A program made the position numbers and the translations under genes. Below are positions 1-25,533 of a stretch of 47,824 nt of DNA, in pieces. The notes beneath the pieces are model-generated. The model was not told the origin of the DNA. It did not search any database and saw only the letters and a program-made list of their open reading frames with translations. Within the stretch, counting starts at the first letter, position 1; every line of letters begins with the position of its first letter. The DNA is from Gemmatimonadota bacterium (GTDB lineage: Bacteria > Gemmatimonadota > Gemmatimonadetes > Gemmatimonadales > Gemmatimonadaceae), in the NCBI GenBank assembly GCA_014192065.1, contig BJHH01000003.1, positions 1-47,824 on the forward strand. Direction: 5' to 3'.

Positions 1-66
1 GGGCTACGCACGTAGGCGCTGCGGGAGATCCTATGCAAGACGGGAGTTCGATTCTCCCCGCCTCCA
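1..66 (+). ncRNA. ssrA: tmRNA (transfer-messenger RNA), 3' end only
   Basis: Partial gene cut by the left window edge. The sequence shows a T-arm with a five-pair stem (42-46 with 54-58) around the loop TTCGATT at 47-53. It is followed by an acceptor strand CGCCTCC (59-65) and discriminator A66. CCA is not encoded, so it would be added after transcription. The upstream CTACGCACGTAG-like segment is typical of the region before the tRNA-like 3' domain of bacterial tmRNA. tmRNA rescues stalled ribosomes and tags their products for proteolysis. An ordinary tRNA is less likely because the segment before the T-arm has no anticodon arm at the right spacing. The end of this gene is repeated at 5482-5553. 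Confidence 0.85.
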
Positions 67-127
67 CTCCCTGAGGTGAACGATACGAGGGAAGGGGCGT
101 CCGAAAGGGCGCCCCTTTTTCGTTTTC
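56..127 (+). repeat. 72-bp direct repeat, copy 1 (attL-like, tmRNA 3' end)
   Basis: Bases 56-127 are identical, base for base, to 5482-5553. The repeat starts inside the 3' strand of the tmRNA T-stem, covers the acceptor strand and runs through the whole tmRNA terminator. Identity stops at both edges (T55 versus C5481, T128 versus G5554). A duplicated ssrA 3' end flanking accessory DNA is the expected product of a tyrosine-recombinase integration event. That interpretation is inference; the identity itself is directly visible. Confidence 0.9.
92..120 (+). terminator. Intrinsic terminator of tmRNA
   Basis: An 11-bp stem pairs 92-102 with 107-117 (one G-U pair) around a GAAA tetraloop, followed by a T-run at 116-120. 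It lies 25 nt after the tmRNA end. It is contained in the 72-bp repeat and therefore recurs at 5518-5546. Confidence 0.85.
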
Positions 128-350
128 TTAAGATTGCTCTGAACATCCGGACACCGTCGGACTCCCCTCTGGAAGGGACTGTGCTATTCCCGGTACCGGT
201 TATATTGCTTCCTAGAGCTGTAACGAATACGTGACAGACCGCACCGATTTGGTGACGAAATCACGCACCGGCTTGGTACAGTGAAGTAAGCCATCGACCA
301 TCGAATGCTTCACGGTGAATCATTCCACAGTGATGGCGGCTCAGTACGAT

Positions 351-367
351 ATCGCACGTCGTGCGAT
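351..367. promoter_or_regulatory. Inverted repeat in the susC leader
   Basis: A perfect 7-bp inverted repeat (351-357 with 361-367, 3-nt centre) lies 28 nt before the susC start and about 15 nt before its Shine-Dalgarno. A weaker GTGA-N5-TCAC palindrome lies at about 252-264. Either could be an operator or a leader hairpin controlling the susCD pair. No function can be assigned from sequence alone. The rest of 128-350 holds no gene. Confidence 0.3.
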
Positions 368-395
368 CATCCCACCCCACAGTAAGGAGTTGCTG

Positions 396-3300
396 ATGTT
401 CCACCGAGCGAGTCTTCGTCGCTTGGCTCTTGCGGCCACTGTCCTGGTGTTGGCGCTTCCGACGCGCGTGTTTGCGCAGACGGGCACCATCACCGGTAAA
501 GTGACCGATGTGGCCACGAAGCAGCCGATCGCTGAAGCCCGCGTTGTTCTGCCGGGCACGGCGTTCCAAACGCAGACGACCAAAGATGGTGAATTCCGCT
601 TCACGAACGTTCGTCCGGGGTCGATCACCGTCGGCGCCTTCCGTCTTGGCTTCAAGGCGGTGTCGGACACTGTTCGCGTCGTCGCCGGCCAGACGGTGAC
701 GGTGAACCTCCAGATGAGCGCCTCCCTCGTCAACCTGACCGAAGTCGTCGTGACGGGTACCGCCGGCAACCAGGAGCGTAAGGCGCAGGCCGCGCTTGTC
801 GCGTCGGTGAAGACGTCGGACGTTATGAAGGATGCACCGATCGCCTCGGTCGCCAATCTCCTCCAGTCGCGCGTGCCGGGCGTTGCCCTGAGCGCGCAGT
901 CGGGCACGGCGGGCACCGCGACGACGATCCGCATCCGCGGCGCCTCGTCGATCAACCTGTCGAACCAGCCGCTGCTCTTCATCGACGGCATTCGAATCAT
1001 TGAGGGCCAGATTGGGTCGGGTCAGAGCGGCCAGGTGTACGACCGCATGAACGACATCAATCCGGACGAAATCGAGAGCATCGAAGTCGTGAAGGGTCCG
1101 GCTGCCGCGACGCTGTACGGCGCCGACGCCTCGGCCGGCGTGATCCAGATGATTACGAAGAAGGGTCGCGCGGGTTCGAACACCTTCCAGCAGTCCGTCC
1201 GCGTCGAAACCGGCACGACCGACCGCAACTACACGCCGCCGAGCAACTATGCGCTCTGCACCGCTGCGCTTGTCGCGACGACGAGCACCAACCCGCTCTG
1301 CCGTGGGCAGGCCGTGGGCGCGCTGATCAGCGACAACCCGCTGATGCGCGTCGGCGCATTCCGCACCGGCACGGATCTGACGCTCGGCTGGAGCGCGCGT
1401 GGCGGTGGCCAGAACCACGGCTACAACCTGACGTACGGCTCGCAAAACACGAAGGGCGTGTTCGGCAATAACCAGTACGACCGCTACAATGTCCGCACGA
1501 ACTTCAACTACGTCCCGAACAGCAAGCTCACGATCGATGCCGGTCTCGGCCTCACGCAGAGCAAGACCCAGCTGCCGGACAACGACAACAACATCTACGG
1601 ATGGCTCGGCGGCGCACTGCTCGGCAACCCGGCGACCCGCACGGACGCAGTGGGCGCGGCGAACGACGGCTGGTACGGCTTCAACCGTCACCTCAACGCG
1701 ATCAACTCGATTGATCACACGCTGCTCACGCACCGCGTGACGTACAACCTTACCGCGAACTACTTGCCGCTCCCGTGGTTCACGAACCGCTTCACGCTCG
1801 GCATGGACTACGCGCAGGACGAGCAGAAGACCTTCTACCCGAAGAACGACAGCATCTGGTACGGCGGTGCACGTGACGGTGGCGACATGTCAGCCAACGC
1901 GCGCGGCGCCGAGCGCTATACGTTCGATTACCTCGGCAACATCCGCCGGGAAATCGGCACGCGCTACGAGGCAAACCTCTCGTTCGGCCTCCAGGTGATT
2001 TCGACGCGGAATACACAGCTCAACGCGTCGGGCCTCTCCTACGTCACCAACGCCAATAACTCGATCAGCTCGGCGGCGACGACGACTGGCGGCAGCAGCT
2101 TCACGGAGCAGCGCCAGTTCGGCTATCTGACGCAGCTCCAGCTCGGGATGGACAACAAGCGCTTCCTCCAGCTCGGCGTCCGTATCGACAAGAACTCGTC
2201 GTTCGGCACCACCGCACCGGCATTCATCCTCCCGAAGGTCGGCGTCAGCTGGGCAATCTCGGAAGAAAAGTTCTTCGAGCGCTATTCCAAGTATGTGAAC
2301 ACCTTCCGCGCCCGTGCCGCCTACGGCACCACGGGTCGCTCGCCGAATCCGGGCGACGCGCTCACGACGCTCAGCGCGGCCGCGTACAACATCACCGGCA
2401 CGACCGGCGCTGGCGCCATCCCGGGCAACCCGGGTAACGCCGCACTGAAGCCGGAGAAGGGCACGGAGTTTGAAGCTGGCCTCGACGCTGGGTTCTTCGA
2501 CAACCGTGTCTCGGCGGAACTCACGTATTTCGTCAAGAAGACGAACGACCTGATCATCGCCAAGCCGATTCCGCCGTCCCTCGGTTTCGCCTCGAACCCG
2601 TTGGCGAACATCGGCAACATCGAGAACCGCGGCGTCGAGCTGGCGCTGAACATCAATGCGGTTCGTCGTCGCAACATCGAGTGGGATGTGCGTGCCGGCA
2701 TCAGCACCCTGCATAACGAACTCACGAGCCTCGGCGGCATCTCGCCGTTCCCGCTCGGCGGCGCCGGTCGTGCGCTCGTCGGTCAGCAGCTCGGCGTCTT
2801 CGTCTCGAAGAAGATCCAGTCGATCGACGTTGCGAACAACAAGGTCATCGTCGCCGATACGCTGACGCCGATGGGCAACCTGTTCCCGACGCTTGAGTGG
2901 AACCTCACCAACACGGTGACGCTCTTCAAGAACCTGCGTCTTTCGGCGCTGCTCGATGCGAAGCGTGGCTTCCTCGTGCAGAACTCCACGCGCTATTTCC
3001 GTGAAACGCAGCTGACCCGCGCCCGCGAGCGCATCGACGTCACGTATCTCTCGGCCTACGAGCGTCTCCGCCGCTATGGCAACCTGACGCCCGGCCAGCC
3101 GGCCTTTGTGACGATCACGGGCAAATCGGAGTCGGTGAGCAATGTCATCGACGCCTTCCTCGAACAGGGTGACTTCACCCGCCTCCGCGAACTCTCGGCG
3201 ACGTACACGCTGCCGACCTCGTGGCTCAAGGGACTCGGTCAGGCCGTGCAGGGCCTCTCGATCACCCTCGCCATGCAGAACGTCAAGCTCTGGACGAACT

Positions 3301-3413
3301 ACAGCGGCTCTGATCCTGAAGTGAACTCGCAGGCTGGTGCGTTCTCGCGCCAGGACTTCCTGACGCTACCGAACCCGAAGAAGACCTCTCTTCGTGCCAA
3401 CTTCACCTTCTAA
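396..3413 (+). CDS. susC: SusC/RagA family TonB-linked outer membrane protein
   Basis: A 1005-aa TonB-dependent outer-membrane transporter that would work with the adjacent SusD lipoprotein to import an oligosaccharide, peptide or other ligand. The start ATG at 396 is set by the Shine-Dalgarno AAGGAG at 384-389; it opens a signal peptide (about residues 1-27, cut near VFA-Q). Next come a carboxypeptidase regulatory-like domain (about 30-106), a TonB-box-like LTEVVVTG (about 114-121), the plug with the RIRGASS and FIDGIRI motifs, and a long beta-barrel. The C-terminus ends in Phe (NFTF), the usual BAM signal. Length matches the family. The stop lies 7 nt before the susD start, so the two form an operon. 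The ligand cannot be predicted: no carbohydrate-active enzyme is present in the window. The pair sits between the two copies of the tmRNA-end repeat. Confidence 0.93.
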   Translation: MFHRASLRRLALAATVLVLALPTRVFAQTGTITGKVTDVATKQPIAEARVVLPGTAFQTQTTKDGEFRFTNVRPGSITVGAFRLGFKAVSDTVRVVAGQTVTVNLQMSASLVNLTEVVVTGTAGNQERKAQAALVASVKTSDVMKDAPIASVANLLQSRVPGVALSAQSGTAGTATTIRIRGASSINLSNQPLLFIDGIRIIEGQIGSGQSGQVYDRMNDINPDEIESIEVVKGPAAATLYGADASAGVIQMITKKGRAGSNTFQQSVRVETGTTDRNYTPPSNYALCTAALVATTSTNPLCRGQAVGALISDNPLMRVGAFRTGTDLTLGWSARGGGQNHGYNLTYGSQNTKGVFGNNQYDRYNVRTNFNYVPNSKLTIDAGLGLTQSKTQLPDNDNNIYGWLGGALLGNPATRTDAVGAANDGWYGFNRHLNAINSIDHTLLTHRVTYNLTANYLPLPWFTNRFTLGMDYAQDEQKTFYPKNDSIWYGGARDGGDMSANARGAERYTFDYLGNIRREIGTRYEANLSFGLQVISTRNTQLNASGLSYVTNANNSISSAATTTGGSSFTEQRQFGYLTQLQLGMDNKRFLQLGVRIDKNSSFGTTAPAFILPKVGVSWAISEEKFFERYSKYVNTFRARAAYGTTGRSPNPGDALTTLSAAAYNITGTTGAGAIPGNPGNAALKPEKGTEFEAGLDAGFFDNRVSAELTYFVKKTNDLIIAKPIPPSLGFASNPLANIGNIENRGVELALNINAVRRRNIEWDVRAGISTLHNELTSLGGISPFPLGGAGRALVGQQLGVFVSKKIQSIDVANNKVIVADTLTPMGNLFPTLEWNLTNTVTLFKNLRLSALLDAKRGFLVQNSTRYFRETQLTRARERIDVTYLSAYERLRRYGNLTPGQPAFVTITGKSESVSNVIDAFLEQGDFTRLRELSATYTLPTSWLKGLGQAVQGLSITLAMQNVKLWTNYSGSDPEVNSQAGAFSRQDFLTLPNPKKTSLRANFTF

Positions 3414-3420
3414 CCGCAAA

Positions 3421-4686
3421 ATGATCATGAAGCAGACGATTCGTCGCGCGGTTACGCGCACACTTGCGGTTTCGACGCTCCTCGTGGGCGCCGCCGCATG
3501 CTCCGACAAGTTCCTCGCCGTCACCAACCCGAACATCATCGATGCGTCCACGGTCGATCCGACGTCCGGCGCTGCGACGCTCTCCGCCTCCGCCCAGCAG
3601 AACTTTGCCACGGCAGTCGGCTGGCTCTCGATGTACAGCGGCTGGTTCGCCGGCGAAGCGAACGTCTCCGATACCTTCCCGACGCGCAACGAGTTCGGTT
3701 TCCGCCTCGTCGTGCCCGAGAACGGTTCACTTCAGAGCGATTTATGGGCGCCGATTTCGCTGGCTGCGGCCTCGAGCAAGATCGTTCTTGATCTGACGCT
3801 CCCGACCCCGACCACGAACATCAATATTGCCCGTGCCGCGACGTTCCGTGGGTTCGCGATCCTCTTCATGGCGACCGATTTCTGCACCGGTGCGCTGTCG
3901 TCGGGGCCGGAACTCACGACCGCACAGATGCTCGATTCGGCCATTTTCTGGCTCGGGAAAGGCATCGACGTCGGCACGGCCAACGCGACCACGGACGGCA
4001 TCGCCATGGCGAACGCCGCCCGCGTCGGTCGCGCTCGCGCGAAGTTGCAGAAGGGCGACAAGGCCGGTGCCGCGACGGATGCCGCGGCGACGCCGGCCGG
4101 CTTCGTCTACAACCTTCGCTACACGGATGACCTGACCAACCGCACGCGTTTGGCGAACCGCCTTTATCAGTTCTCGTTCGACCGCGGTTCGATCAGCGTT
4201 GCTCCGGCGTTCCGGGTGACCAACGACCCACGCCTGACGTACAACCCGGCGGACAAGGGCACGGCCCAGCCCCCAGACGTCGTGCCTGGTGGCTGGTTCC
4301 AGCAGACGAAGTTCACCGGCTATGCTTCGGCCCTCCGTCTGGCTTCGAAGCTCGAGGCCGATTACATCGCGGCTGAAGCATCGGGCAACGCCCCGACAAT
4401 GCTGACGCTCATCAACGCCCGTCGTACCGCGAACAACCAGGCGGTCTACGCTGGAGCGACCGACAACGCGAGCGTTATGACCGAGCTCTACAACCAGCGT
4501 GGGATCGAGTTCTACCTCGAAGGCAGGCGCCTGGCGGACTATCGCCGTTCGCCGTCCTCGGTGTCGAACATCACGCCGGCCGGCGCGCCGTACTTCAAGC
4601 CGGGCTACGCGAACACGGGAACGCAGACCTGCTACCCGCTGCCGCGTCAGGAACGCGACAACAACCCGAACATGAAGACGAACTAA
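3421..4686 (+). CDS. susD: SusD/RagB family nutrient-binding outer membrane lipoprotein
   Basis: A 421-aa lipoprotein partner of SusC. It caps the transporter on the cell surface and captures ligand. The start is ATG 3421; ATG 3427 is an equally possible start two codons later. The signal peptide ends in a lipobox LVGAAAC with the lipidated Cys at residue 27. The protein is rich in TPR-like helices. Its C-terminal LPRQERDNNPNM resembles the conserved SusD ending. It is somewhat shorter than the 500-600 aa Bacteroides members, as is common in the RagB/SusD group outside Bacteroidota. It directly follows susC and is followed by a very strong hairpin terminator. Confidence 0.9.
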   Translation: MIMKQTIRRAVTRTLAVSTLLVGAAACSDKFLAVTNPNIIDASTVDPTSGAATLSASAQQNFATAVGWLSMYSGWFAGEANVSDTFPTRNEFGFRLVVPENGSLQSDLWAPISLAAASSKIVLDLTLPTPTTNINIARAATFRGFAILFMATDFCTGALSSGPELTTAQMLDSAIFWLGKGIDVGTANATTDGIAMANAARVGRARAKLQKGDKAGAATDAAATPAGFVYNLRYTDDLTNRTRLANRLYQFSFDRGSISVAPAFRVTNDPRLTYNPADKGTAQPPDVVPGGWFQQTKFTGYASALRLASKLEADYIAAEASGNAPTMLTLINARRTANNQAVYAGATDNASVMTELYNQRGIEFYLEGRRLADYRRSPSSVSNITPAGAPYFKPGYANTGTQTCYPLPRQERDNNPNMKTN

Positions 4687-4703
4687 CCTTCGGGTTCTGA
4701 AAG

Positions 4704-4745
4704 ACGATAAAGGCCGCAGGGAAGTTTCCCTGCGGCCTTTATCGT
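4704..4745. terminator. Strong hairpin terminator between susD and the convergent PspC gene
   Basis: A perfect 20-bp inverted repeat (4704-4723 with 4726-4745) starts 17 nt after the susD stop and is followed by only a short T-run. The gene on the other side (4891-5319) is convergent, so the hairpin may stop transcription in both directions. The downstream DNA (about 4785-4880) is visibly more AT-rich than its surroundings and holds no gene. Confidence 0.8.
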
Positions 4746-4890
4746 TTCCGTCGCCCGGTGCGCTCCGGCGTCAGTCAAACAAGCAGCAGCAATATTGTCC
4801 GTGACAGAACGAACAATCTTGTTATGGTGTACGAATAAATCTTTACCATCAAATCGCATTGGCAACACCACTCGCATCATCGCTGACCAA

Positions 4891-5319
4891 TCACCGGGGG
4901 AGATACTTGGTCGGAAGTTTCGGCAGCAGCAGTGCGAACCAGTAGATCCAGAACGTAACGGAGTAGGTGAACAACCACGTCAGCACGAGTACGAACCTGA
5001 CGACACCGGCATTGATTCCCAACTTGTGCGCAAGGCCACCACACAAACCAACGAAAAGCTTCTCGTCGGAGGAGCGGTAAATGCCACTGTACTCGGACGG
5101 TAACGGAGGCGGCGGTGCGGACTGTGCGGGAGGCGGCGGGAATGCCAGCTTCGGAAACTGGACTCCCGGAACGGTGACGAGCTTTACCCAGACCGTGGCC
5201 CCCTCCTGAAGAGCGTCATCGGTCGGCTGGAAGTTGCCAGCCAGGGCGCCTTCGGCGATCTGCTCCGGCGTGAAATCGCCAAGCACCGCGCCGTTCCTCG
5301 CAATCCGACAATGGGACAT
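4891..5319 (-). CDS. GYF-like / PspC domain membrane protein
   Basis: A 142-aa protein of unknown specific role. The N-terminal 50 residues fit a GYF_2-type domain (MSHCRIARNGAVLGDFTPEQI). A proline-rich linker follows (about 60-78). The C-terminal part is a PspC domain: RSSDEKLFVGLCGGLAHKLG, then one or two hydrophobic segments (about 106-138). PspC domains occur in phage-shock/envelope-stress membrane proteins; the GYF_2 plus PspC combination is a common but uncharacterised bacterial architecture. The start at 5319 has a GGAG Shine-Dalgarno about 8 nt upstream. The gene is monocistronic and convergent to susCD. It lies inside the segment bounded by the tmRNA-end repeats. Confidence 0.85.
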   Translation of the reverse strand: MSHCRIARNGAVLGDFTPEQIAEGALAGNFQPTDDALQEGATVWVKLVTVPGVQFPKLAFPPPPAQSAPPPPLPSEYSGIYRSSDEKLFVGLCGGLAHKLGINAGVVRFVLVLTWLFTYSVTFWIYWFALLLPKLPTKYLPR

Positions 5320-5481
5320 TGACTAACTCCGCAGTAGTGAGGTCGAGGCATTTCGCTTTGAAGCTACTGATCGCGTTGGGTTGTCAGTAGGGGTATCGCA
5401 GCGAACACGACACGCAGCGCATTGTCCGACATTGTCCGTATGTGTCTAGCGACGTGCGAAAAGAGCGGAGAGTTTGCTAGC

Positions 5482-5553
5482 CCCCGCCTCCACTCCCTGA
5501 GGTGAACGATACGAGGGAAGGGGCGTCCGAAAGGGCGCCCCTTTTTCGTTTTC
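5482..5553 (+). repeat. 72-bp direct repeat, copy 2 (attR-like, displaced tmRNA 3' end)
   Basis: Exact copy of 56-127. It holds only the acceptor strand and terminator (hairpin 5518-5528 with 5533-5543, T-run 5542-5546) and no upstream tmRNA sequence, so it cannot encode a functional tmRNA. In the usual model this is the original chromosomal 3' end, displaced when an element carrying a replacement end inserted. Confidence 0.9.
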
Positions 5554-5648
5554 GATCCGGTAAGCCCCGGCTACGGCGGCGCACGACGGTTTAGCGACTT
5601 GCGGGGGCGAGGCAGCTTGACTTACTCAACGAATAGTTGATATTCCAT

Positions 5649-5684
5649 GTGCGCGGCGATTTCCCGACTTGACGGGCCGCGCAC
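5649..5684. repeat. Hairpin-forming inverted repeat
   Basis: A perfect 9-bp inverted repeat (5649-5657 with 5676-5684) encloses a second small stem (CCCG 5663-5666 with CGGG 5673-5676). No T-run follows, so it is not a typical terminator. Function unknown. Confidence 0.5.
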
Positions 5685-5732
5685 GGGGTTCGCCCTGAGA
5701 ATATCCGTCTAAGTCCCGTGCCAAACGGCCCG

Positions 5733-5749
5733 CGACTGACAGTCAGTCG
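5733..5749. repeat. 8-bp palindrome with one-base centre
   Basis: CGACTGAC and GTCAGTCG flank A5741. The very short centre favours a protein-binding palindrome over an RNA hairpin. It lies about 215 bp before the unrecognised gene at 5964. Confidence 0.4.
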
Positions 5750-5963
5750 GGGGTCGTCGCTTTTTCTACAACTGAAAGGCCCGGTCACCTGCGCCTCGGT
5801 GGCCAACATGAAGAGAGACGGCGAGAGCATCGGCTCGTTGACCCGTCCGCCAGACCGTAGTCCTGCCCATTCCGGGCACCACGGTGGCTCAGCCGACCGG
5901 CGTCGATCTAGACGCTGGACCCATGTGCGAGCGAGGCGCGACCTCTTTCGAAAGGACTGCATC

Positions 5964-6323
5964 ATGGAGCTCCAGCCCTCGCGTTACGAACGTGTCACCA
6001 AGTCCGGCGAAATACTCCTTTCGCACCACCACATTTCGCTGTTGCACGGCCTGATGGATCGACCAGAGGGCATTGCCCTGTCCGTCGGTGACTGGCTGTT
6101 GGCATCGCTGCCCTACGGCAGGCGCTATCTGGACTACGTGTCAGTCGGGATGCTCCAGAAGGCCATTCGTACTATGCACCCATCGTGGGTTCACCGACAA
6201 AAGACTGGGCGCTGCATTCAGGCGACACTGCTCTCGCGTGGCCGCGCTATCATCGATCGTGATCTGGCGGCGCGCATCCGAGGGCATGGCACGTATGACG
6301 GGTTGCCGAAGATCAGGCGGTGA
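5964..6323 (+). CDS. Hypothetical protein (119 aa)
   Basis: Not recognised. ATG 5964 follows the Shine-Dalgarno GAAAGGA at 5950-5956, which decides the start; the longer open frame upstream runs through the palindromic non-coding region. The protein is soluble, basic towards the C-terminus (ends PKIRR) and has no signal peptide or membrane segment. It is rich in His and Leu near the N-terminus (LLSHHHISLLHGLMDRP). No catalytic motif is visible. A small DNA-binding or regulatory protein is possible but unsupported. It is followed after 33 nt by another unrecognised gene and lies next to the displaced tmRNA end, in what may be transferred DNA. Confidence 0.6.
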   Translation: MELQPSRYERVTKSGEILLSHHHISLLHGLMDRPEGIALSVGDWLLASLPYGRRYLDYVSVGMLQKAIRTMHPSWVHRQKTGRCIQATLLSRGRAIIDRDLAARIRGHGTYDGLPKIRR

Positions 6324-6356
6324 GGATGCTCACGTTGAAGCGGACGATACAGACGC

Positions 6357-6629
6357 ATGACTCGTAAGGTGGCGGAGGGTTTGATCATTCTCCTCGACAG
6401 CGGGCTGATTTATACACTCAAGCCGTCGGCCAGTATCGATGCCGCTATCATCGTCTACACGGTGAAGTCTGACCAGGCGGACATGGCGCGATCGATCCTG
6501 TTAGGCCTCATGCACGAAGACGGTCAATTTCAAGTGCTCGGTCGATGCGGCGGCCCGTCCATCCGAGTGTTAGCATCTACGCTCCTCATAGATGACTTGA
6601 ACCAGCCACGTCAAGCCTATACTAAATAA
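6357..6629 (+). CDS. Hypothetical protein (90 aa)
   Basis: Not recognised. The 90-aa product has alternating hydrophobic stretches (GLIILLDSGLIYTL, AAIIVYTV) but no clear membrane helix, so a small alpha/beta fold is plausible. The start ATG 6357 has no strong Shine-Dalgarno; the coding evidence is an uninterrupted frame with GC-rich third positions in part, and the same strand as its neighbours. Base composition is more AT-rich than the housekeeping genes to the right, as in the next gene. Confidence 0.45.
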   Translation: MTRKVAEGLIILLDSGLIYTLKPSASIDAAIIVYTVKSDQADMARSILLGLMHEDGQFQVLGRCGGPSIRVLASTLLIDDLNQPRQAYTK

Positions 6630-6714
6630 CGACTTACGGCGCATATGCAGGTGACGCTGAACGCGGCATTACCATCTGCACCACCTCCACGCCGTACCAA
6701 AATCTCACAAACGC

Positions 6715-6748
6715 CTCTGTGGTAGCGGTGAAAGCAATCCACGGGGGG
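6715..6748 (+). repeat. 34-bp direct repeat, copy A
   Basis: 6715-6748 matches 7125-7158 at 31 of 34 positions (offset 410; mismatches at 6727, 6731 and 6743). Both copies sit immediately before a gene and end in a G-run that may serve as Shine-Dalgarno. A shared CGTACCAA lies just upstream in both, separated from copy A by about 14 extra bases. The unit includes a potential small hairpin (GTGGA-AGCAA-TCCAC in copy B). Confidence 0.85.
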
Positions 6749-6763
6749 TCTACATTATTACAG

Positions 6764-7135
6764 ATGATCTCATCAGTGCTAATTCTTTTGGTTGGCGGAG
6801 TGCTGCTAGGGCACTTGGCGAGTCGGCTCTTTCAAGTTCTGGCAATCCTCCCTGCGAGCATTGTCGGAGTTGGAGGGCGCGAGGAGGGCCGGTGGAGTCA
6901 GGTAGCTCAACTCATCAAAGAAGACATTCCCCTATTCGCTGCAGTTGTGGTGATGATTATCGCGTTTGTCGCGTTGCTATTCGTGCCAACGTGGATGATC
7001 GCGTTTGGGATCTCTCTCTACCCAATTGCCAACATTTTGATTTCTAGTGAGTCCACTAAAGAAGCCATTCCTCTATTCGCTGCAGCTGTGGTGACGATTA
7101 TCGCGTTTTTCGCGTTCGTACCAACTCTGTGGTAG
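6764..7135 (+). CDS. Small integral membrane protein with duplicated segment
   Basis: Not recognised as a known family. From ATG 6764 the product is 123 aa with four probable membrane segments: about residues 2-24, 53-74, 74-92 and 103-121. The third and last quarters derive from a duplicated DNA stretch (6917-6990 and 7058-7125). Both copies encode the near-identical I-P-L-F-A-A-hydrophobic block and a VPT motif. An in-frame GTG at 6719 would add 15 residues (VAVKAIHGGST) but falls inside a 34-bp repeat that also precedes the asparaginase, so the ATG is preferred. A, T-rich codons (ATT, CTA, TTG) set it apart from neighbouring genes. Role unknown. Confidence 0.55.
   Translation: MISSVLILLVGGVLLGHLASRLFQVLAILPASIVGVGGREEGRWSQVAQLIKEDIPLFAAVVVMIIAFVALLFVPTWMIAFGISLYPIANILISSESTKEAIPLFAAAVVTIIAFFAFVPTLW
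6917..6990 (+). repeat. Intragenic duplication, copy 1 (about 74 bp)
   Basis: About 74 bp matching 7058-7125 (offset 141) with five or so substitutions and a 6-bp gap (GCTATT present only here). The reading frame is kept in both copies, so the duplication lengthened the membrane protein by one repeat module. Confidence 0.8.
7058..7125 (+). repeat. Intragenic duplication, copy 2 (about 68 bp)
   Basis: Second copy of the module at 6917-6990. It runs directly into copy B of the 34-bp repeat (7125-7158), so the two repeat types abut here. Confidence 0.8.
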
Positions 7136-7158
7136 CCGTGGAAGCAATCCACCGGGGG
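7125..7158 (+). repeat. 34-bp direct repeat, copy B
   Basis: Partner of 6715-6748. It spans the last codons of the membrane protein gene and the leader of the asparaginase gene, and supplies the G-rich Shine-Dalgarno (7154-7160) for the latter. Confidence 0.85.
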
Positions 7159-7167
7159 AGCTATAGC

Positions 7168-8265
7168 GTGACGTCGGCAATTAGTGCCGTCACACCTGCG
7201 CTGCTGCTCGCCTTAGCGGCGTGCCAACGCGGCCAGGCGATCCCACAGCCTATCCCGCAGGCAGCAGCGGTTGTTCTCGCGGTCAGCACCCCGGGCCCGC
7301 TGGGACCACGCCCTCTCATTCGGGTGCTCGGAACCGGCGGTACGATCGGCTCGGCCGGAGCCTATTGGACGGGGAGCTCTACTCGTGTGGCGATCGATCA
7401 GCTCCTGCGCGTCCCTGGCATCGATTCGATCGCGACAGTCGAGACGGAACAGTTCCTCAACTTGGCGTCGAGCGCGATCGGGCCAGCTCGCTGGCTTGAG
7501 CTGTCACGGCGTATTGCACAGCTATTTGCCGAACGCAGCGACCTGCGCGGAATCGTCGTGACGCACGGCACCGACACAATGGAAGAGACGGCGTACTTTC
7601 TCGATCTCACGGTCGGTGGCATCCGCCCGGTCGTTGTCACTGGATCGATGCGGCCATCGGACATGGCTGGCGCAGACGGGCCGGCGAACCTGACGAGTGC
7701 CGCGCGCGTCGCGGTCGACACCAATGCGCGTGGCCGTGGCACGATGGTCGTGATGGATGACCGGCTGTTCGCCGCGCGCGATGTGACCAAGTCGAACAGC
7801 ACACGGGTGGAGGCATTCCAGGCGCCAGAGCGTGGGCCACTCGCGATCATTGACCCGGAGGGCGTGGTCTACCGGCGGAAGTCCGACCACCGGAACGCGC
7901 CGCAGTTCGACATCAGCGCGGTGACGGAGTTGCCGCGCGTGGACGTCATTTACGCGTATGCGGGCGCCGACGGCGCCGCTATCGACGCCGTGGTCGCCGC
8001 CGGAGCCAAGGGTATCGTCGTGGCGGGAGTGGGTCGCGGCGGATCGACCCAACTGCAGAGTGCCGCGCTCGCGCGTGCGCGGGAGCGTGGCGTCGTCATC
8101 GTCACATCGACCCGCACCGGATCTGGCGCCGTGCCAGTGGGGACGGGAGCCAACGTTGGTGCCGGCGATCTCAATCCGCAAAAGGCGCGTGTGCTGCTCA
8201 TGCTGGCGCTCACTCGCACGAGCGACGTGGTACAGCTGCGAAAGGTCTTCGCCGAGAATCAGTAG
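7168..8265 (+). CDS. L-asparaginase, exported lipoprotein-type
   Basis: Hydrolyses L-asparagine to aspartate and ammonia. The start chosen is GTG 7168, 7 nt after GGGGGAG (7154-7160), giving 365 aa. An upstream in-frame GTG (7129) overlaps the previous gene. The N-terminus is a hydrophobic leader with lipobox LALAAC (Cys about 19), so the enzyme is probably a periplasmic lipoprotein. Both family signatures are present: GTGGTIGS with catalytic Thr at about 59, and VVTHGTDTMEETAY with the second catalytic Thr-Asp at about 135-136. The Lys of VTKSNS completes the triad. Length fits the type II class. It stands alone, convergent with purF 61 nt away; a weak 6-bp inverted repeat (8297-8302 with 8315-8320) lies between. 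The N-region lacks basic residues if GTG 7168 is right, so the start is not certain. Confidence 0.9.
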   Translation: MTSAISAVTPALLLALAACQRGQAIPQPIPQAAAVVLAVSTPGPLGPRPLIRVLGTGGTIGSAGAYWTGSSTRVAIDQLLRVPGIDSIATVETEQFLNLASSAIGPARWLELSRRIAQLFAERSDLRGIVVTHGTDTMEETAYFLDLTVGGIRPVVVTGSMRPSDMAGADGPANLTSAARVAVDTNARGRGTMVVMDDRLFAARDVTKSNSTRVEAFQAPERGPLAIIDPEGVVYRRKSDHRNAPQFDISAVTELPRVDVIYAYAGADGAAIDAVVAAGAKGIVVAGVGRGGSTQLQSAALARARERGVVIVTSTRTGSGAVPVGTGANVGAGDLNPQKARVLLMLALTRTSDVVQLRKVFAENQ

Positions 8266-8326
8266 GGCCAAACGTCCGCGCTGCTGACCACTCGGTTGGC
8301 GAGCTGCCAGCGCGTCGCCAGCACCG

Positions 8327-9697
8327 TTACCCCATTCGCTGTTTCGACGCGATAGTTGGCGCCGCGGTCGGGTAGTTGCCGCTGAAGCAGGAATCGCAGA
8401 ATCCGGTCGGTCCATCGGGCACCGCGCCAAGCATACCGTCGAGCGAGATGTAGCCGAGTGAATCCACGCCGATGTGCTGCGCCACTTGATCGATGGACAT
8501 GTTCGCCGCGATGAGTTCCTTCTTGTCGGGCGTATCGATGCCATACCAGCAGGGCCCGATGATCGGCGGCGAACTCACACGCATGTGCACTTCGCGCGCT
8601 CCGGCGGCGCGCACCAAGGCCACCAGCCCCCGAGTTGTCGTGCCACGAACGATCGAGTCGTCCACCATCACGACGCTCTTCCCGGCAAGAATTTCCCGGA
8701 CCGGGTTGTACTTGACCTTCACCTTCGCGTCGCGTCCTTGCTGGGTGGGCTGGATGAATGTCCGGCCGACGTAGTGATTGCGGATGAGCGCGTGTTCGAG
8801 TGGCAGCCCCGACTGAACGGAGAACCCCAGCGCGGCGGCGTTCGACGAATCGGGGACGGCAAAGACAAAGTCCGCCCCAGGGGCAGGGTGTTCGATCGCG
8901 AGCTGACGCCCAAGCGCACGTCGTGCGCCGTCCACCGATCCGCCGAACACGCGGCTGTCAGGGCGGGCGAAGTAAACATGCTCGAACACGCATCGGTGGA
9001 GTGGCGTCGCGCGCTCAAGCTGGAGGGTGCGGATCCCTGTGGCGTCCACGGCGATGATCTCACCGGGCTCGACGTCTCGCACATAGGTGGCGCCGACGAT
9101 ATCGAGGGCGCAGGTCTCCGACGCGAAGACCGTCGCGCCGTTGAGAGTTCCCATGGCGAGCGGGCGCCAGCCATTCGGGTCGCGGGCTGCCAGCAGCGTG
9201 TCATTGATCAGTACGAGCAACGAATAGGCACCTTCGATTCCCTGGAGTGCTTCGGCGAGCTGCCGCTCCGGCTGCTTGGAGTGAGCGCGGGCGAGGCGGT
9301 GGACGATGACCTCGGAGTCCATCGTGGAGCTGAAAATCGAACCGCTGCCTTCAAGCGCCTGTCGCAGTTCGGTCGCGTTGGTCAGGTTCCCGTTGTGGGC
9401 CAGCCCGATGTGGCCACCGCGGAACTGCACCAGCGACGGTTGCGCGTTCTCGATCGTAGACGCGCCCGCGGTGGAATATCGGGTGTGGCCAAGGGCGGTA
9501 CGGCCCGCTAGGCCCTTGAGCGCTTCAGGGGAAAAGGCGTCGCCGAGCATGCCCATCGCTCGGAGACTGGTTCCGCGCCCGTTGTCGCTGGCGATGATGC
9601 CGGCTGATTCCTGTCCGCGGTGCTGGAGCGAGTAAAGTCCCAGATGCGTGAGGACGGCCGCCGAGTCATGTCCGCTGATTCCAAAAATACCGCACAT
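8327..9697 (-). CDS. purF: Amidophosphoribosyltransferase
   Basis: First committed step of purine synthesis: PRPP plus glutamine gives 5-phosphoribosylamine. The 456-aa product starts Met-Cys-Gly-Ile-Phe-Gly, so removal of Met exposes Cys as the N-terminal glutaminase nucleophile; there is no propeptide. The PRPP-binding loop is VMVDDSIVRGTTTRG in the C-terminal phosphoribosyltransferase domain. Four cysteines match the 4Fe-4S ligands of the Bacillus-type enzyme (RCVFEHVYF, GPCWYGID and the CDSC pair near the end). Last gene of the minus-strand operon; its ATG overlaps the purL stop by one base (TGATG, 9695-9699). A longer open frame exists upstream but runs through purL and lacks plausible start codons near the Cys. 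Confidence 0.96.
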   Translation of the reverse strand: MCGIFGISGHDSAAVLTHLGLYSLQHRGQESAGIIASDNGRGTSLRAMGMLGDAFSPEALKGLAGRTALGHTRYSTAGASTIENAQPSLVQFRGGHIGLAHNGNLTNATELRQALEGSGSIFSSTMDSEVIVHRLARAHSKQPERQLAEALQGIEGAYSLLVLINDTLLAARDPNGWRPLAMGTLNGATVFASETCALDIVGATYVRDVEPGEIIAVDATGIRTLQLERATPLHRCVFEHVYFARPDSRVFGGSVDGARRALGRQLAIEHPAPGADFVFAVPDSSNAAALGFSVQSGLPLEHALIRNHYVGRTFIQPTQQGRDAKVKVKYNPVREILAGKSVVMVDDSIVRGTTTRGLVALVRAAGAREVHMRVSSPPIIGPCWYGIDTPDKKELIAANMSIDQVAQHIGVDSLGYISLDGMLGAVPDGPTGFCDSCFSGNYPTAAPTIASKQRMG

Positions 9698-11994
9698 CAG
9701 GCCGTTACCTCGGCAACAGGAAGTTCTGACGACACCGCGCGGCTGAGTGCTCGTTCGAGCGCGCCGTGGTACGCGTACGCGAGTTCTTCCAGCGACGCCC
9801 GCAGTTCGCGGCCTGCACCTGTGATCACGAGGCCGCTCGCCGCTGGCGACGTTGACCCGATGACCTGTGCCGGTACCCCGTGCTTTGCGGCGACCGCCAG
9901 CAACGCGGGGAGGTCCGACGCGGTGGCAATGATGCGTCCTTGCGCTTCTCCAAAGAAGAGCGCACGGTCTGGCAGCGCATCCCACGGCGACAGCGAGACC
10001 GTCGCGCCAATCGGCGCGAGCGTGTCGGCGATGCAGCATTCGCTCAGCGCGACGGCGATGCCACCTTCACTACAATCGTGGGCGGAGTTTACGTAGCCTC
10101 CTTGGATTGCTTCGACAATCGCGTCGATCAGCGCGCGCTCTCGGGTCAGGTCGCACGCCGGCGGTGCGCCGGCCACAACGCCATGAATCCACGAGAGATA
10201 CTCGCTCGCGCCGAGCTCGGCGGTCGGCTCGCCAAGGAGGACGATCGGGTGGCCCGCCGCCTTGAAGGCCATGCCGGTGGCGTGCGCCACGTCGTCGAGC
10301 ACGCCGACCATCCCGATCGTCGGCGTCGGGTAGATCGCGCCGTGCGGGTTCTCGTTATAGAGCGACACGTTGCCGCCGGTGACTGGCGTATCGAGCGCGA
10401 CACAGGCTTCGCCCATACCGCCGACGGCTTCCTTGAACTGCCAGAACACGTCCGGCTTCTTTGGGTTGCCGAAGTTGAGGCAGTTGGTGATCGCGCGCGG
10501 ACGTGCACCGGTGCAGGCGACGTTTCGAGCCGCTTCAGCTACGGCAATGCGTCCGCCGACTCGTGGTTCGAGGTAGACGTAGCGGCCGTTACAGTCGGTC
10601 TTCACCGCCAGTCCGCGTGTGGTGCCCCGAATCCGCAGCACCGCCGCGTCGGCCGCCCCAGGGCCGAGCACCGTGCTGGTGCGCACGGTGGAATCATACT
10701 GGCGGTAGACCCATTGTTTGGACGCGATCGTCGGCGAGGAGAGCAGGCGCGTGAGCGTCCATGCAAGATCCCGTTCCTCAGCCTTGGGAGGAATGGCATG
10801 CACGTCACGAGCCCGAAGGGCGATGACCGCGGCGCCTTCTTTTGCCTCAGGCGTATACATCGGGCAGTCGGTGACGAGGCGCGTGCCGGGGAACTCGGCC
10901 ACCACGTGGTCGCCTTCTACGACACGGTACACGGGTTCGGCGATCACCTCGCCGATCACTTCAGCGTGCAAGTCCCACTTAGCCAGAATGGCGCGCACCG
11001 CCTCTTCGCGGCCTTTGTGCGCCACTACCAGCATCCGTTCCTGCGATTCGCTGAGCAGGATCTCGTACGGTGTCATCCCCTGTTCGCGCACCGGAACCTT
11101 GAGGGTATCGATGACCACGCCAACATCACCGCGCTCCGCCATCTCCGCGCTCGACGACGTGAGTCCTGCAGCGCCCATGTCCTGTACGGCCACCACGTTG
11201 CCGCTCGCAATCATTTCGAGCGTCGCTTCGAGTAGCAACTTTTCTGTGAAGGGATCACCGACCTGGACGCGCGGCCGCTTGGCGTCGCTGTCGTGCGAGA
11301 GGTCTTCGGACGCAAATGAGGCGCCGTGAATGCCGTCGCGCCCGGTCCTTGCACCGACGGCGATGACTGGGTTGCCGACCCCTTCGGCCTTGGCGCGGAT
11401 CAGGTCCTCCTCACGGAGAATCCCGACGCACATCGCGTTGACGAGCGGATTGCCATCGTACGCAGCGTCGAACATGATATCGCCAGCAACGGTCGGCACG
11501 CCGATGCAGTTCCCGTAATCGCCGATCCCTTTGACCACGCCGCCGACGAGGTATCGCACCCGCGGCGATTCGAGCGAGCCAAATCGGAGCGAGTTCAGCA
11601 TCGCGATCGGCCGCGCTCCCATTGTGAACACGTCGCGCAGAATGCCACCGACGCCGGTGGCGGCGCCCTGGTACGGTTCGATGGCCGACGGGTGGTTGTG
11701 CGACTCGATCTTGAACGCCACGGCAAGTCCGTCGCCAATGGAGATCACGCCAGCATTTTCACCGGGACCTTGGAGTACCCAGGGCGCCTCGGTCGGCAGG
11801 GTGCGCAGGACCGCACGGGAATGCTTGTACGAGCAGTGCTCGCTCCATAGCGCGCTGATGATCCCGAGTTCGGTAAATGTTGGCTGGCGGCCGAGCATGG
11901 CGACCAGCTTGTCGAACTCGGCGGGCGTGAGACCATGCTCTGCGACGAGTGCTGGTGAGATGACGGGATCGCCCTGCCGTGGCGTGGCGGTCAC
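9697..11994 (-). CDS. purL: Phosphoribosylformylglycinamidine synthase, subunit PurL
   Basis: Catalytic subunit that converts FGAR to FGAM using ATP and ammonia delivered by PurQ. At 765 aa it is the small PurL type that needs separate PurQ and PurS, both encoded just upstream. Seen: the N-terminal [10 protein letters not shown] motif (about 50-59), the nucleotide/metal SHNHPS motif, and the duplicated PurM-like AIRS folds. The start is GTG 11994, which directly abuts the TAG stop of the zinc-ribbon gene with no gap, so translation is probably coupled. Its stop overlaps the purF start. Confidence 0.96.
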
Positions 11995-21369: not shown

Positions 21370-21978
21370 CTAGTAGCGGCGGAGCACTCCGACCACGATC
21401 CCGCGCACCTGCATCTGATCTTCGCGGACATAGATGGGCGCCATCTGGTCGTTCGACGGTTGCAGCCGGATGCGCCCGTCTCGTTCACGATAGTATCGCT
21501 TCACCGTGGCGGATGATCCCTCGAGCATGGCGATCACCATCTCACCGTTATCGGCTGAGCTTCGGTCGTTCACCACGACCAGGTCGCCGTCGCGGATCTG
21601 GTCGTCGATCATGGACTGGCCACGTACGCGCAACGCGTAGTGGTTCCCCGGCCGGCGCACAAACTCTTCCGGCACGGACACCGTTTCGTCCGATGTGGAC
21701 ACGTCGATCGGGGAGCCGGCGGCGACGGCGCCAAGCAGTGGGATTTCGACTGCTCTCGAGATCACGTCGGACGGCAGAATCTCGATGGCGCGGCTCTCGT
21801 TGTACGTGCGCTTGATGTAGCCCTTGCGCTCGATATTCGTGAGATGTTCGTGCACCGTTGCCAACGAGTTATAGTTGAAGTGTTCGGCGATCTCCTCGAA
21901 ACTCGGCGCATATCCGTGTTCGCCGGAGTAGCTGTTCAGATAGTCGAGGATCTGGCGCTGGCGTCGTGTGAGAGGCAT
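21370..21978 (-). CDS. lexA: SOS-response repressor LexA
   Basis: Transcriptional repressor of DNA-damage genes that self-cleaves when RecA filaments form. ATG 21978 (MPLTRRQRQILDYL) gives 202 aa; upstream ATGs are possible but would extend past the family start. Winged helix-turn-helix at about residues 1-65, cleavage site Ala87-Gly88 (GAVAAGSP), catalytic Ser122 (RGQSMID) and Lys160 (ATVKRYY). It is transcribed divergently from trpC. CCGAA repeats in the intergenic region (22046-22087) may be its operator. Confidence 0.96.
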   Translation of the reverse strand: MPLTRRQRQILDYLNSYSGEHGYAPSFEEIAEHFNYNSLATVHEHLTNIERKGYIKRTYNESRAIEILPSDVISRAVEIPLLGAVAAGSPIDVSTSDETVSVPEEFVRRPGNHYALRVRGQSMIDDQIRDGDLVVVNDRSSADNGEMVIAMLEGSSATVKRYYRERDGRIRLQPSNDQMAPIYVREDQMQVRGIVVGVLRRY

Positions 21979-22045
21979 CGCGTGTCCGAGGAGAAGGGGT
22001 TGGCGCGGCACCGGGCGGCCGCAATTTCTTGTAGCGTCTTGACGC

Positions 22046-22087
22046 CCGAATAACTCCCGAAGTAACGGTAGCCGAACATTGACCGAA
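22046..22087. promoter_or_regulatory. Four CCGAA repeats between lexA and trpC (candidate operator)
   Basis: CCGAA occurs at 22046, 22057, 22072 and 22083, i.e. as two pairs each with 11-bp spacing, the pairs 26 bp apart (one and about two and a half helical turns). Neither the E. coli CTGT-N8-ACAG nor the Bacillus GAAC-N4-GTTC box is present. Autoregulation by LexA or control of the trp operon are the obvious alternatives. Confidence 0.4.
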
Positions 22088-22909
22088 ACGCAAGCGAACG
22101 ATCAGGGCTGGAAGCCGCCAACGGGGGTGCTGGGCGAGCTTGTCGCCGCGGCGCTGGAGCGGGCAGCGGTGCTGGTTCGCGCCGCCACCCCCGGCGAAGT
22201 GCTGCACGCCGGATTCCCTGTACCAGGCGCATTCGTCTCGGCGTTGCGGCGTCCAACCGTCGTCGTGATCGCGGAGATCAAGCGGAGGAGCCCGAGTAAG
22301 GGTTCGATCAACGAAGCGCTCGCCGGCGGACCACGAGCGGCGGAATACGAAGCTGGCGGCGCGGCGGCGATTTCGGTGCTTACGGAACCGGTCCGCTTTG
22401 GTGGAAGCGTGGCCGACCTGACCGAAGTTCGGCGCGCAGTCAGCATTCCCGTTTTGCGCAAGGACTTCATCGTGCATGAAGCCCAGCTCGCAGAGGCCAG
22501 GTCAGCTGGCGCCAGCGCCGTGTTGTTGATCGCGCGCGCACTCGCGCCGTCGCAGGCCGCGGACCTTGCCGATGCCGCTGGCTCGCTCGGCCTCGACGTG
22601 TTGTTCGAGGTGCGCGATGAAGCAGAGCTGGCCCGGGCCATCGCGATTCGTGCCTGCGCGATCGGCGTGAACACGCGCAATCTTGAAACGCTGCAGATCG
22701 ACCCAGCGGTGGGCCAACGATTGCTCGCCCAGGTGCCACCCGAGCGGGTGGCCGTGTACGAAAGTGGAATTGCCACTCGTGCCGATCTGGAGCGCGCGGC
22801 TGGCTGGGGTGCCGACGCCGTATTGGTTGGCTCATCGCTGTCCGTGGCGACCGACGCGTCAGCGGCGGTACGCGCGCTGTGCGGCGTGCCGGTGACGCGT
22901 CGTGGCTGA
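22079..22909 (+). CDS. trpC: Indole-3-glycerol phosphate synthase
   Basis: Ring closure step of tryptophan synthesis. Intact barrel motifs: IAEIKRRSPSKG, VLTEPVRFGGS, LRKDFIVHEAQ, GVNTRNLETL and ESGI. The start is uncertain: TTG 22079 gives 276 aa and would lie inside the CCGAA repeat array. GTG 22127 gives 260 aa, nearer the family norm, with GGAAG about 12 nt upstream. The 3' end overlaps trpF by 8 nt. Confidence 0.94.
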   Translation: MTETQANDQGWKPPTGVLGELVAAALERAAVLVRAATPGEVLHAGFPVPGAFVSALRRPTVVVIAEIKRRSPSKGSINEALAGGPRAAEYEAGGAAAISVLTEPVRFGGSVADLTEVRRAVSIPVLRKDFIVHEAQLAEARSAGASAVLLIARALAPSQAADLADAAGSLGLDVLFEVRDEAELARAIAIRACAIGVNTRNLETLQIDPAVGQRLLAQVPPERVAVYESGIATRADLERAAGWGADAVLVGSSLSVATDASAAVRALCGVPVTRRG

Positions 22910-23546
22910 GGTAAAGTTTTGCGGCTTGACGCAGGAAGCCGATGCCGAAATGGCCGCCGAACTGGGCGCATCGCACGCCGGCGTGATCTTCGCGGGAGGT
23001 CCACGCGAGATCTCGCCCGAACGTGCCACGGCGGTGCTTGAAGCCGCCGGTCGCGGTGTCCTCCGGGTCGGCGTCTTTGGCGCAGACGCTCGGACCCGCG
23101 TGCCCACGGTAATCCGGTCAACTCCGCTCGACGTGATCCAGCTGCACGCGGATCCGTGTGCAGCCGACATCGTTGACGCGAGGCAATACTTCGCTGGCAC
23201 CGTCTGGGCGGCGCTCCGCGTTGCGGGCACAAACATCCCTGAGACTTCGGCGGCGCTATTCGGCGAGGCGGATGCCGTGCTGCTCGACGCGAGGGTACCG
23301 GAAAAACTTGGCGGCGCCGGTGTCGCGATCGCGTGGTGGGAAATAGCCGATGCGATTGGTCGTATCCGGGCCGGCGGCAAGTTGGTACTGGCCGGGGGGT
23401 TGTCGCCGGAGAATGTTCAGGAGGCGATAGCGGCGCTCAATCCCGACATCGTAGACATTTCGTCCGGTGTGGAGTCAGCGCCGGGAATCAAGGACCATTT
23501 GCGGATGCGGGCATTTGCACGCGCCGTGCGAGGGATTGCCGAATGA
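22902..23546 (+). CDS. trpF: Phosphoribosylanthranilate isomerase
   Basis: Converts PRA to CdRP. GTG 22902, 214 aa. The N-terminal EVKFCGLT motif carries the catalytic Cys; VIQLHAD and the phosphate loops [10 protein letters not shown] and [14 protein letters not shown] are present. It overlaps trpB by ATGA (23543-23546). Confidence 0.95.
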
Positions 23547-24733
23547 CAGGGCATGCGAGCGAAACTGGTCGGTTTGGCGTTTACGGCGGACAGTATGTCC
23601 CGGAGACGCTGATTCCCGCGCTCGACGAACTCACGGCCGCATTCGACGCGGCGGTGAAGGATTCGGCGTTCATGGACACGCTGAACGGGATGCTCTCGAC
23701 CTATGTCGGTCGCCCGTCGCCGCTGTCTGAGGCGCCCCGACTGTCCGAACGCGTCGGCGCCCGCGTGCTGCTGAAGCGTGAGGACCTCAACCACACCGGC
23801 GCGCACAAGATCAACAATGCGCTGGCGCAGGCACTGCTCGCGCAGCGCATGGGCAAGCGGCGGATTATCGCCGAGACTGGCGCGGGGCAACACGGTGTCG
23901 CCACGGCCACCGCCTGTGCGCGCCTCGGGCTCGACTGCGTGGTGTACATGGGTGAAGAGGACATGCGCCGCCAGGAACTGAATGTGTTCCGGATGCGGCT
24001 CATGGGCGCGGAGGTGATCCCGGTGACGTCGGGTACACGTACGCTCAAAGACGCGACGAGTGAGGCGATTCGTGACTGGGTCGGTAGCTGCGACCACAGT
24101 CATTACATCATTGGATCCGTCGTTGGGCCCGCGCCATATCCGCGCATGGTGCGTGATCTCCAGTCGATCATCGGCCGCGAGGCGCGCGCGCAGGTACTCG
24201 AGCGCGTTGGCCGGCTGCCGCGCTCGGTGGTGGCATGCATTGGCGGAGGATCAAACGCCATCGGCATCTTCCACGCGTTCGTTGCCGACGCCGACGTGCA
24301 ACTGATCGGCGTCGAGGCGGCCGGCAAGGGGCTCGATACCGAGGAGCATTCTGCGTCGCTGCTTCGCGGAAAACCCGGCGTCCTGCACGGGACGTTGAGT
24401 TACCTGCTCCAGGATGAGCAAGGCCAGGTCCATCCCGCTCACTCGGTGTCCGCAGGGCTCGACTATCCAGGGGTCGGCCCCGAACATGCCTGGCTCAAGG
24501 ATTCAGGGCGTGCGGAATACGTCGCCTGCACGGATGCCGACGCGTTGGCGGCATTCGGCTTGATGGGCCGGCTCGAAGGGGTGATCCCGGCACTCGAAAC
24601 GGCACACGCTGTAGCGTGGATGTTGGCGCAGCGCGGCCGCTGGACAGCCGACGAACCAGTCCTGCTCTGCGTGAGCGGCCGCGGTGATAAAGACGTGGCG
24701 CAGGTCGCCAAAACAGAGGCGTTGAACCAGTGA
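23543..24733 (+). CDS. trpB: Tryptophan synthase beta chain
   Basis: PLP enzyme that joins indole and serine. ATG 23543, 396 aa. N-terminal [18 protein letters not shown]-binding Lys89 in [10 protein letters not shown], phosphate cup [10 protein letters not shown] and the E-T-G-A-G-Q-H substrate loop are all intact. This is the TrpB1 type that partners TrpA. It overlaps trpA by GTGA (24730-24733). Confidence 0.96.
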
Positions 24734-25533
24734 TCAATCCCACCGCGCCCCAAGCGATCGCTGCCTTGCTGACCGACCGAATGCTGGAGCTGCGCGCGTC
24801 GCGCCGGCGTGCGCTCGTGTGCTACGTGACGGCTGGTCACCCCGACCGCGCAGCGAGCATCGCTTTGGTGCAGGGGATCGCTGACGCGGGCGCAGACGTG
24901 ATTGAGCTCGGTGTGCCTTTCAGCGACCCGGTCGCCGATGGCCCCGTGATTCAGGCATCGAGTCAGCGGGCGCTTGACGGGGGGATGACGCTTGACCGTA
25001 CGCTCGAGATCGCAGCAGCGGCAGCCGTGCGCGTGCCGCTGGTCCTCTTTAGCTACCTGAATCCGCTGTTGGCCTCTGGAGCCGATGTATTGATCCGGTC
25101 GCGCGACGCTGGGATTTCCGGAATCCTTGTGACCGACCTGCCGGTCGGCGCGGACCCTGAGCGGGAGCAGTGGATCGGCGGCGGCCCGCTGGCGTTTGTG
25201 CGCCTGGTGGCGCCGACGACGCCTGTTGAGCGGATGGCCGCAATCGCGAGCCATGGAAGCGGATTCGTCTATCTGATCAGTCGCCTTGGAGTGACCGGCG
25301 CGCGCGACGATCTGCCAGTCGACCTCCCGGCCACGGTTGCGCGGTTGCGCGGAGTCTGTTCGTTGCCGATCTGCGTGGGATTCGGTGTGTCGACGCCTAC
25401 GCAGGCTCGCGCGGTGGCGCACCTCGCCGATGGTGTCGTGGTCGGCAGCGCACTCGTCCAGGCTGCCGAACGGTCGGTGGACGAGGCCGTGGCATTCGTG
25501 CGTTCGCTCCGCGCGGCGCTCGACGGAGCATGA
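24730..25533 (+). CDS. trpA: Tryptophan synthase alpha chain
   Basis: Releases indole from indole-3-glycerol phosphate and channels it to TrpB. GTG 24730, 267 aa. The acid-base Glu and Asp lie in [19 protein letters not shown]. The flexible loop is around [10 protein letters not shown], and the phosphate site is [11 protein letters not shown]. It overlaps the next gene by ATGA (25530-25533), linking trp synthesis to the yqeK gene. Confidence 0.95.

Follow-up and report, generated by a model that had tools for sequence, protein, structure and literature searches.

In the first part of a 47,824-nucleotide stretch of DNA from a Gemmatimonadota bacterium (genome G000; GenBank assembly GCA_014192065.1, contig BJHH01000003.1, positions 1 to 47,824 of the forward strand; the whole stretch is referred to here as the window), a segment encoding an outer-membrane transporter pair of the SusC/SusD type is enclosed by two copies of the 3' end of ssrA, the gene for transfer-messenger RNA (tmRNA). 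Together with these copies the segment (56-5553) probably represents a small genomic island that arose by site-specific integration at the ssrA 3' end. Sequence comparison provides three grounds for this view, namely the repeat itself, the insertion of DNA relative to other members of the genus, and the occurrence in that genus of integrase-bearing elements specific for ssrA.

The duplicated ssrA end and its cargo

Bases 56-127 and 5482-5553, both on the plus strand, are identical at 72 of 72 positions, as had been stated in an earlier sequence-only reading of this DNA, and constitute a maximal exact repeat with a mismatch immediately outside both ends. It had likewise been proposed that the repeat runs from the tmRNA T-stem through the terminator, and this agrees with the complete tmRNA gene detected on contig C8 (61-427, minus strand, by ARAGORN; tag ANQNFALAA; Rfam RF00023, 132 bits), the 3' part of which occupies window positions 1-67 (plus strand) within an overlap of 127 bases. 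The ssrA 3' end falls at window positions 67-69, and the repeat begins in the T-stem, takes in the final 12-14 nucleotides of the gene and includes the intrinsic terminator behind it (a hairpin followed by T residues, -28.3 kcal/mol, z -3.5). Copy 1, which is ssrA-proximal and attL-like, consists of these last nucleotides of ssrA and the terminator (hairpin at about 85-123), while copy 2, distal and attR-like, consists of a displaced ssrA end and terminator. In the whole genome (2,447,829 bases, 16 contigs, 97.75% complete) the 72-mer was found at two loci only, and the repeat is not a common terminator with many genomic copies; a third match at C8:1-72 is the same tmRNA locus counted again, because C8 overlaps the window start by exactly 127 bases.

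The interval between the copies (128-5481) encodes only three proteins: a TonB-linked outer-membrane transporter, SusC (315-3413, plus strand, likely start ATG at 396; TIGR04056 above cut-off), a SusD/RagB-type surface lipoprotein, SusD (3394-4686, plus strand, likely start 3421; Pfam SusD_RagB above cut-off), and a PspC-domain protein identified by family search (4891-5319, minus strand) with a weak N-terminal GYF_2-like match; the 17 further genomes of the genus yielded no homologue of it. Family membership suggests that the SusC/SusD pair mediates TonB-linked uptake of a glycan or another nutrient. Both this gene content and the lack of an integrase gene had been read from the sequence alone, and they are borne out by the family matches and by the location elsewhere of the only PF00589 genes of the genome (C3:107994, C6:8626 and C1:152696); no integrase remnant was found in the window with a related ssrA integrase as query.

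It is extremely improbable that an assembly or binning artefact has joined unrelated sequences through the repeat. The window does start at a contig end (that of C3) of a draft genome in 16 contigs, but the repeat, at 72 bp, does not reach the apparent graph k of 127, both copies lie within one contig of 354 kb, and the ends of C8 and C3 keep the gene order that is conserved around ssrA. Four contig pairs, C8/C3 among them, overlap by exactly 127 bases, as would be expected from de Bruijn assembly at k=127, and the final base of the 127-mer common to C8 and C3 is also the final base of copy 1. Since such graphs break where sequences diverge, part of the molecules in the sample probably have a different continuation immediately past the repeat. 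The unbroken passage of C3 through copy 2 is not accounted for by a population in which filled and empty sites are simply mixed. In the same assembly, the first and last 200 bases of the small contigs C15 and C16 are identical in both orientations, their ends consisting of simple or repetitive sequence, or of masked bases.

Inserted DNA and integrase elements at ssrA in relatives

The order of genes is conserved both upstream (MATE transporter, PTS-type gene, dus, larB, ssrA) and downstream (purF, purL, purQ, pssA, psd, purC, purB), so that the gap between ssrA and purF is the variable part of the locus. This gap measures 8.2 kb in G000 and about 100 bp in G005, where purF is again convergent, and in G003 the ssrA end (3660 in locus L082) directly adjoins the start of convergent purF (3733). 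By this comparison the region is inserted DNA relative to its congeners, because ssrA directly adjoins purF in both, and the possibility raised at the outset that all relatives share the two copies with the same genes between them does not apply. The extent first assigned to the island was upheld in part, in that 56-5553 is inserted, while foreign DNA reaches beyond 5481 to about 8326, the right boundary being purF (8327-9703, minus strand), the native ssrA neighbour in congeners. The additional part (5554-8326), which comparison with congeners shows to be absent from the G003 and G005 gap, contains three small open reading frames (ORFs) without family matches (5718-6323, 6357-6629 and 6719-7135) and a type II-like asparaginase gene (7129-8265), and, from the 8.2 kb of the whole gap, it is possibly a second, degraded insertion.

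Two further features of the window were observed. Direct repeats of 91-92% identity occur within 6715-7158, one of 59 bp (6917-6975/7058-7116) and one of 34 bp (6715-6748/7125-7158), and this duplication spans the starts of the ORF at 6719 and of the asparaginase ORF. At 39201-39296, a 96-nucleotide tRNA-Gly(CCC) called by ARAGORN overlaps the end of a carboxyltransferase-like ORF and is probably a false call.

Integrase-bearing elements occupy the same site in relatives. In G001, of the same genus, a 451-aa tyrosine integrase (Arm-DNA-bind_3, Phage_int_M and Phage_integrase domains) starts about 160 bp past the tmRNA end and is followed by genes for AlpA (an excisionase), an AAA_25 ATPase and a terminase large subunit; the element is 8.7 kb long and ends in an 11-bp copy of the ssrA end. 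G004 represents the empty site, given that the sequence past the G001 element aligns with the region downstream of ssrA in G004, where the flanking genes are joined. Because G001 is filled and G004 empty, ssrA is, on this sequence evidence, a tyrosine-integrase target in the genus. Another member of the genus, G012, has an integrase homologue at the same place, cut by a contig end (47% over 143 aa). Outside the genus but within the family, ssrA is directly followed by a homologue in G118 and in G093, the latter in an element with 21-bp repeats 14.2 kb apart, and in G160 a homologue adjoins a matching ssrA-type 3' end. The integrases found at ssrA in relatives are tyrosine integrases of the P4 type. 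Related loci were also noticed. In G011, a metagenome-assembled genome (MAG) from Lac Pavin, a fragment of an AAA_25/primase-helicase-like gene (L072, 10375-11484) comes right after ssrA and is apparently the remnant of another ssrA element. In G037 (L159, 1184 and 10379), the neighbour of an ssrA-integrase homologue is not ssrA but a tRNA 3' region that is duplicated and has a CAT anticodon sequence, which suggests that the target has changed within this family of integrases.

The ends of the island point in the same direction. Its distal end (5391-5481, plus strand) is similar to that of the G001 element, at 69% over 105 bp when the count is carried on into the repeat: the 110 bp ahead of copy 2 align with the 110 bp ahead of the distal ssrA end in G001, with a score reached by one of 2000 dinucleotide shuffles and by none of 746 window segments, and among 179 genomes of the family G001 gave the sole match extending into the distal-arm part of the query. 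Both ends moreover carry, in inverted orientation, a 20-bp motif (GTCCGACNNTGTCCGNATGT), present as GTCCGACGGTGTCCGGATGT at 143-162 (minus strand) and as its counterpart GTCCGACATTGTCCGTATGT at 5424-5443 (plus strand), near the distal end; five of 2000 shuffles gave a pair as good. These inverted motifs are candidate arm-type integrase sites. No further perfect match occurs in the genome, a count that is only descriptive because the motif derives from these very copies.

An alternative would be that susCD has always stood beside ssrA in this lineage, and that the arrangement is ancestral. G017 also has a susCD pair just 3' of ssrA, but its SusC is merely 29% identical, the closest susCD genes lie away from ssrA in G001, G002, G004, G005, G006, G007 and G016, and the adjacency of ssrA and purF in G003 and G005 contradicts it, so that this alternative is very improbable. 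The different susCD pair of G017 (L070, 10641-14955) directly follows ssrA and precedes an anti-sigma-like RskA_C gene and a gene for a PAP2 protein, and no flanking repeat was found around it. As regards the history of the island copy, the nearest SusC relatives (75% in G002, G006 and G007, 72% in G001) are all encoded away from ssrA, and no susC of comparable similarity was found in the near relatives G011, G012, G013 and G003 (G013 being 61% complete). In a gene tree of SusC the island copy clusters with those of G002, G001/G004 and G006/G007, and the nearest relatives lack it, a pattern that is also compatible with vertical descent and losses instead of transfer.

Origin of the island and of its long repeat

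It is proposed that a P4-like tyrosine integrase, of the family seen at ssrA in relatives, joined the attP of an element to the chromosomal ssrA end, and that this attP carried a copy of the ssrA end and terminator, such that copy 1 would restore ssrA and its terminator and copy 2 would be the displaced end. We infer that it was this integrase family that made the island. The element itself consists only of its cargo (susC, susD and the PspC-domain gene) and of ends with inverted candidate arm sites, with no integrase, excisionase or transfer gene of its own. It would accordingly either be the product of decay or be mobilized by an integrase acting in trans, or in cis from a tandem neighbour, in the manner of a cis-mobilizable element (CIME).

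Several observations weigh against integration as the origin of the island. No ssrA-type integrase was found in the G000 genome, and no genome was found with a single 72-bp copy between the same flanks. The repeats of the integrase-bearing relatives measure 11 bp (G001) and 21 bp (G093) as against 72 bp in G000. The similarities between the arms extend over short stretches, and it was from the two ends of the island that the 20-bp motif was derived; the 127-base overlap, for its part, implies a branch only by inference from the assembly, not from reads. Base composition does not discriminate either: the island is atypical (tetranucleotide distance 0.215 versus 0.114 +/- 0.010), but the other susCD locus of G000 is equally so (0.206), and composition was consequently dropped as a sign of foreign origin. 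This second locus (G000:C7, about 21470-25350; L127:7472-11352) shares 98-99% DNA identity over 3.8 kb with G009:C98 (L068), although the two genomes are otherwise distant, an identity that reflects either a recent transfer or the wrong binning of a contig in one of the two.

The length of the repeat and the missing integrase are also the points in favour of a different origin, in which the ssrA end was duplicated illegitimately or homologously, with no integrase involved, and susCD came separately. On the other hand, the start in the T-stem, the orientation and the side match integration targeted to tmRNA, integrase elements use the same site in the genus, and the distal ends are alike; this origin is considered improbable. 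The statement made from the sequence alone, that integration at tmRNA leaves exactly this duplication, is supported as to the site and its targeting by integrases and falls short as to length, the repeats of relatives being just 11-21 bp. Integrase-bearing relatives bring their own terminator directly after the ssrA end, whereas in G000 the terminator lies within both copies. A repeat of 72 bp with terminator would accordingly mean either that the element brought along an extended copy of the lineage's own ssrA end, or that two related elements stand in tandem.

Tandem accretion, a variant of site-specific integration and not exclusive of it, is given somewhat less than an even chance. Two related elements would have entered ssrA in turn, the younger at 56-5481 and the older from 5482 to about 8326, the latter having lost its right end and integrase, and copy 2 would be the left end of the older one with an element-borne terminator. 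This is consistent with the left ends of integrase-bearing elements, in which the ssrA end is immediately followed by a terminator belonging to the element, with the similarity of the terminator stretch of both copies to the G012 element (97% over 36 nucleotides) and to the G001 element (88% over 33 nucleotides), and with 5554-8326 being likewise missing from the G003/G005 gap. However, 5554-8326 contains no phage-like gene, and a search of 5554-8330 for a third ssrA-end remnant gave a score of 24 versus a shuffle mean of 26, with nothing above shuffles; terminators of the same type, with GNRA loops, also occur elsewhere, and the half of the 72 bp outside the terminator, the spacer ACTCCCTGAGGTGAACGATACGA, is common to G011 and may be native to the G000 lineage. 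An exact search of genome contigs for the 27-mer spanning ssrA end and spacer matched only the Lac Pavin MAG contig corresponding to G011, a search of viral contigs with the same 27-mer gave no match, and the island ends had no DNA match among phage and plasmid records. A 24-nucleotide near-match to the spacer in G028, with no detectable tmRNA nearby, was set aside as probable chance.

Whether integrated once or in tandem, the island raises the idea of a minimal SusCD cassette that is still mobile, a non-autonomous island made up of nothing but a nutrient transporter pair between ssrA att sites, whose excision and insertion would be carried out in trans by the integrases of ssrA-targeted phage satellites. 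Present mobility of this kind appears improbable; if it were real, natural Gemmatimonadota populations would exchange nutrient specificity at a single chromosomal position. More generally, ssrA emerges as an integration hotspot for elements with P4-type integrases in one Gemmatimonadota family, with filled and empty sites within a single genus, and a SusCD pair as the cargo of an island without mobility genes suggests a route by which nutrient-uptake systems might spread in a largely uncultured group.

Comparison with known systems

The closest single counterpart, the G001 element (G001:C50), shares with the G000 island the target, the crossover region CCCCGCCTCCA, a similar distal arm and a similar terminator, and differs in its integrase, AlpA, AAA_25 ATPase and terminase genes, its length of 8.7 kb, its 11-bp repeat and the absence of susCD. 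The Islander definition of tRNA and tmRNA islands requires an integrase gene inside the island (PMC4383910); in other respects the G000 island is of the same kind, with an intact tmRNA gene, a displaced 3' fragment downstream in the same orientation and a length of 5.4 kb within the range of 2-200 kb, and only the integrase inside the interval is missing. A tycheposon, in which a tyrosine recombinase lies close to a tRNA together with nutrient cargo, was considered and rejected, as the island contains no recombinase and its target is a tmRNA and not a tRNA gene. As regards an integron cassette array (CALIN), with attC-flanked cassettes in the vicinity of an integron integrase, the repeat of the island is the ssrA end and the IntI-like gene is on another contig, C1. 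That gene (G000:C1:152504-153619; L146:2005-3120, minus strand) encodes a 371-aa tyrosine recombinase beside a formate-tetrahydrofolate ligase-like gene and, read by eye, has an insertion like the integron-integrase patch ('...FLHWQWVFPA...RHHMHDTVVQRA').

CIMEs are flanked by att sites and lack integration and transfer genes (PMC5704250, after Pavlovic et al. 2004); the classical ones derive from integrative and conjugative elements (ICEs) or integrative and mobilizable elements (IMEs), and some have been mobilized experimentally (PMC5704250). The G000 island resembles them in that integration and transfer genes are absent from 128-5481, attL- and attR-like sites are kept, with both 72-bp copies intact and a candidate arm motif at either end, the target is the 3' end of a gene, and tandem accretion is a likely origin and route. 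In contrast, its relatives look like phage satellites; as to origin by decay of an ICE or IME, its distal end resembles the integrase-bearing element of G001, which is phage-satellite-like and not an ICE. The island fits the description of an element working like a CIME, whereas strict membership requires descent from an ICE or IME and proven cis-mobilization.

With the ssrA islands of Dehalococcoides the G000 island shares the location at ssrA, the boundaries formed by that gene and by a directly repeated copy of its 3' end, and a niche-specific cargo. Those islands use the large serine recombinase DsiB, a 20-bp repeat and reductive dehalogenase cargo (PMC3146451), in place of which G000 has a P4-like tyrosine integrase in its relatives, a 72-bp repeat and SusC, SusD and PspC-domain cargo. 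The absence of an integration module from 15 of 31 Dehalococcoides islands, termed possible cis-mobilizable elements (PMC3146451), also means that a cargo-only ssrA island is not unusual, contrary to the initial description of this one as unusually small and cargo-only. In conclusion, the principle is already known from Dehalococcoides and streptococci, and what is new in the Gemmatimonadota island is its cargo.

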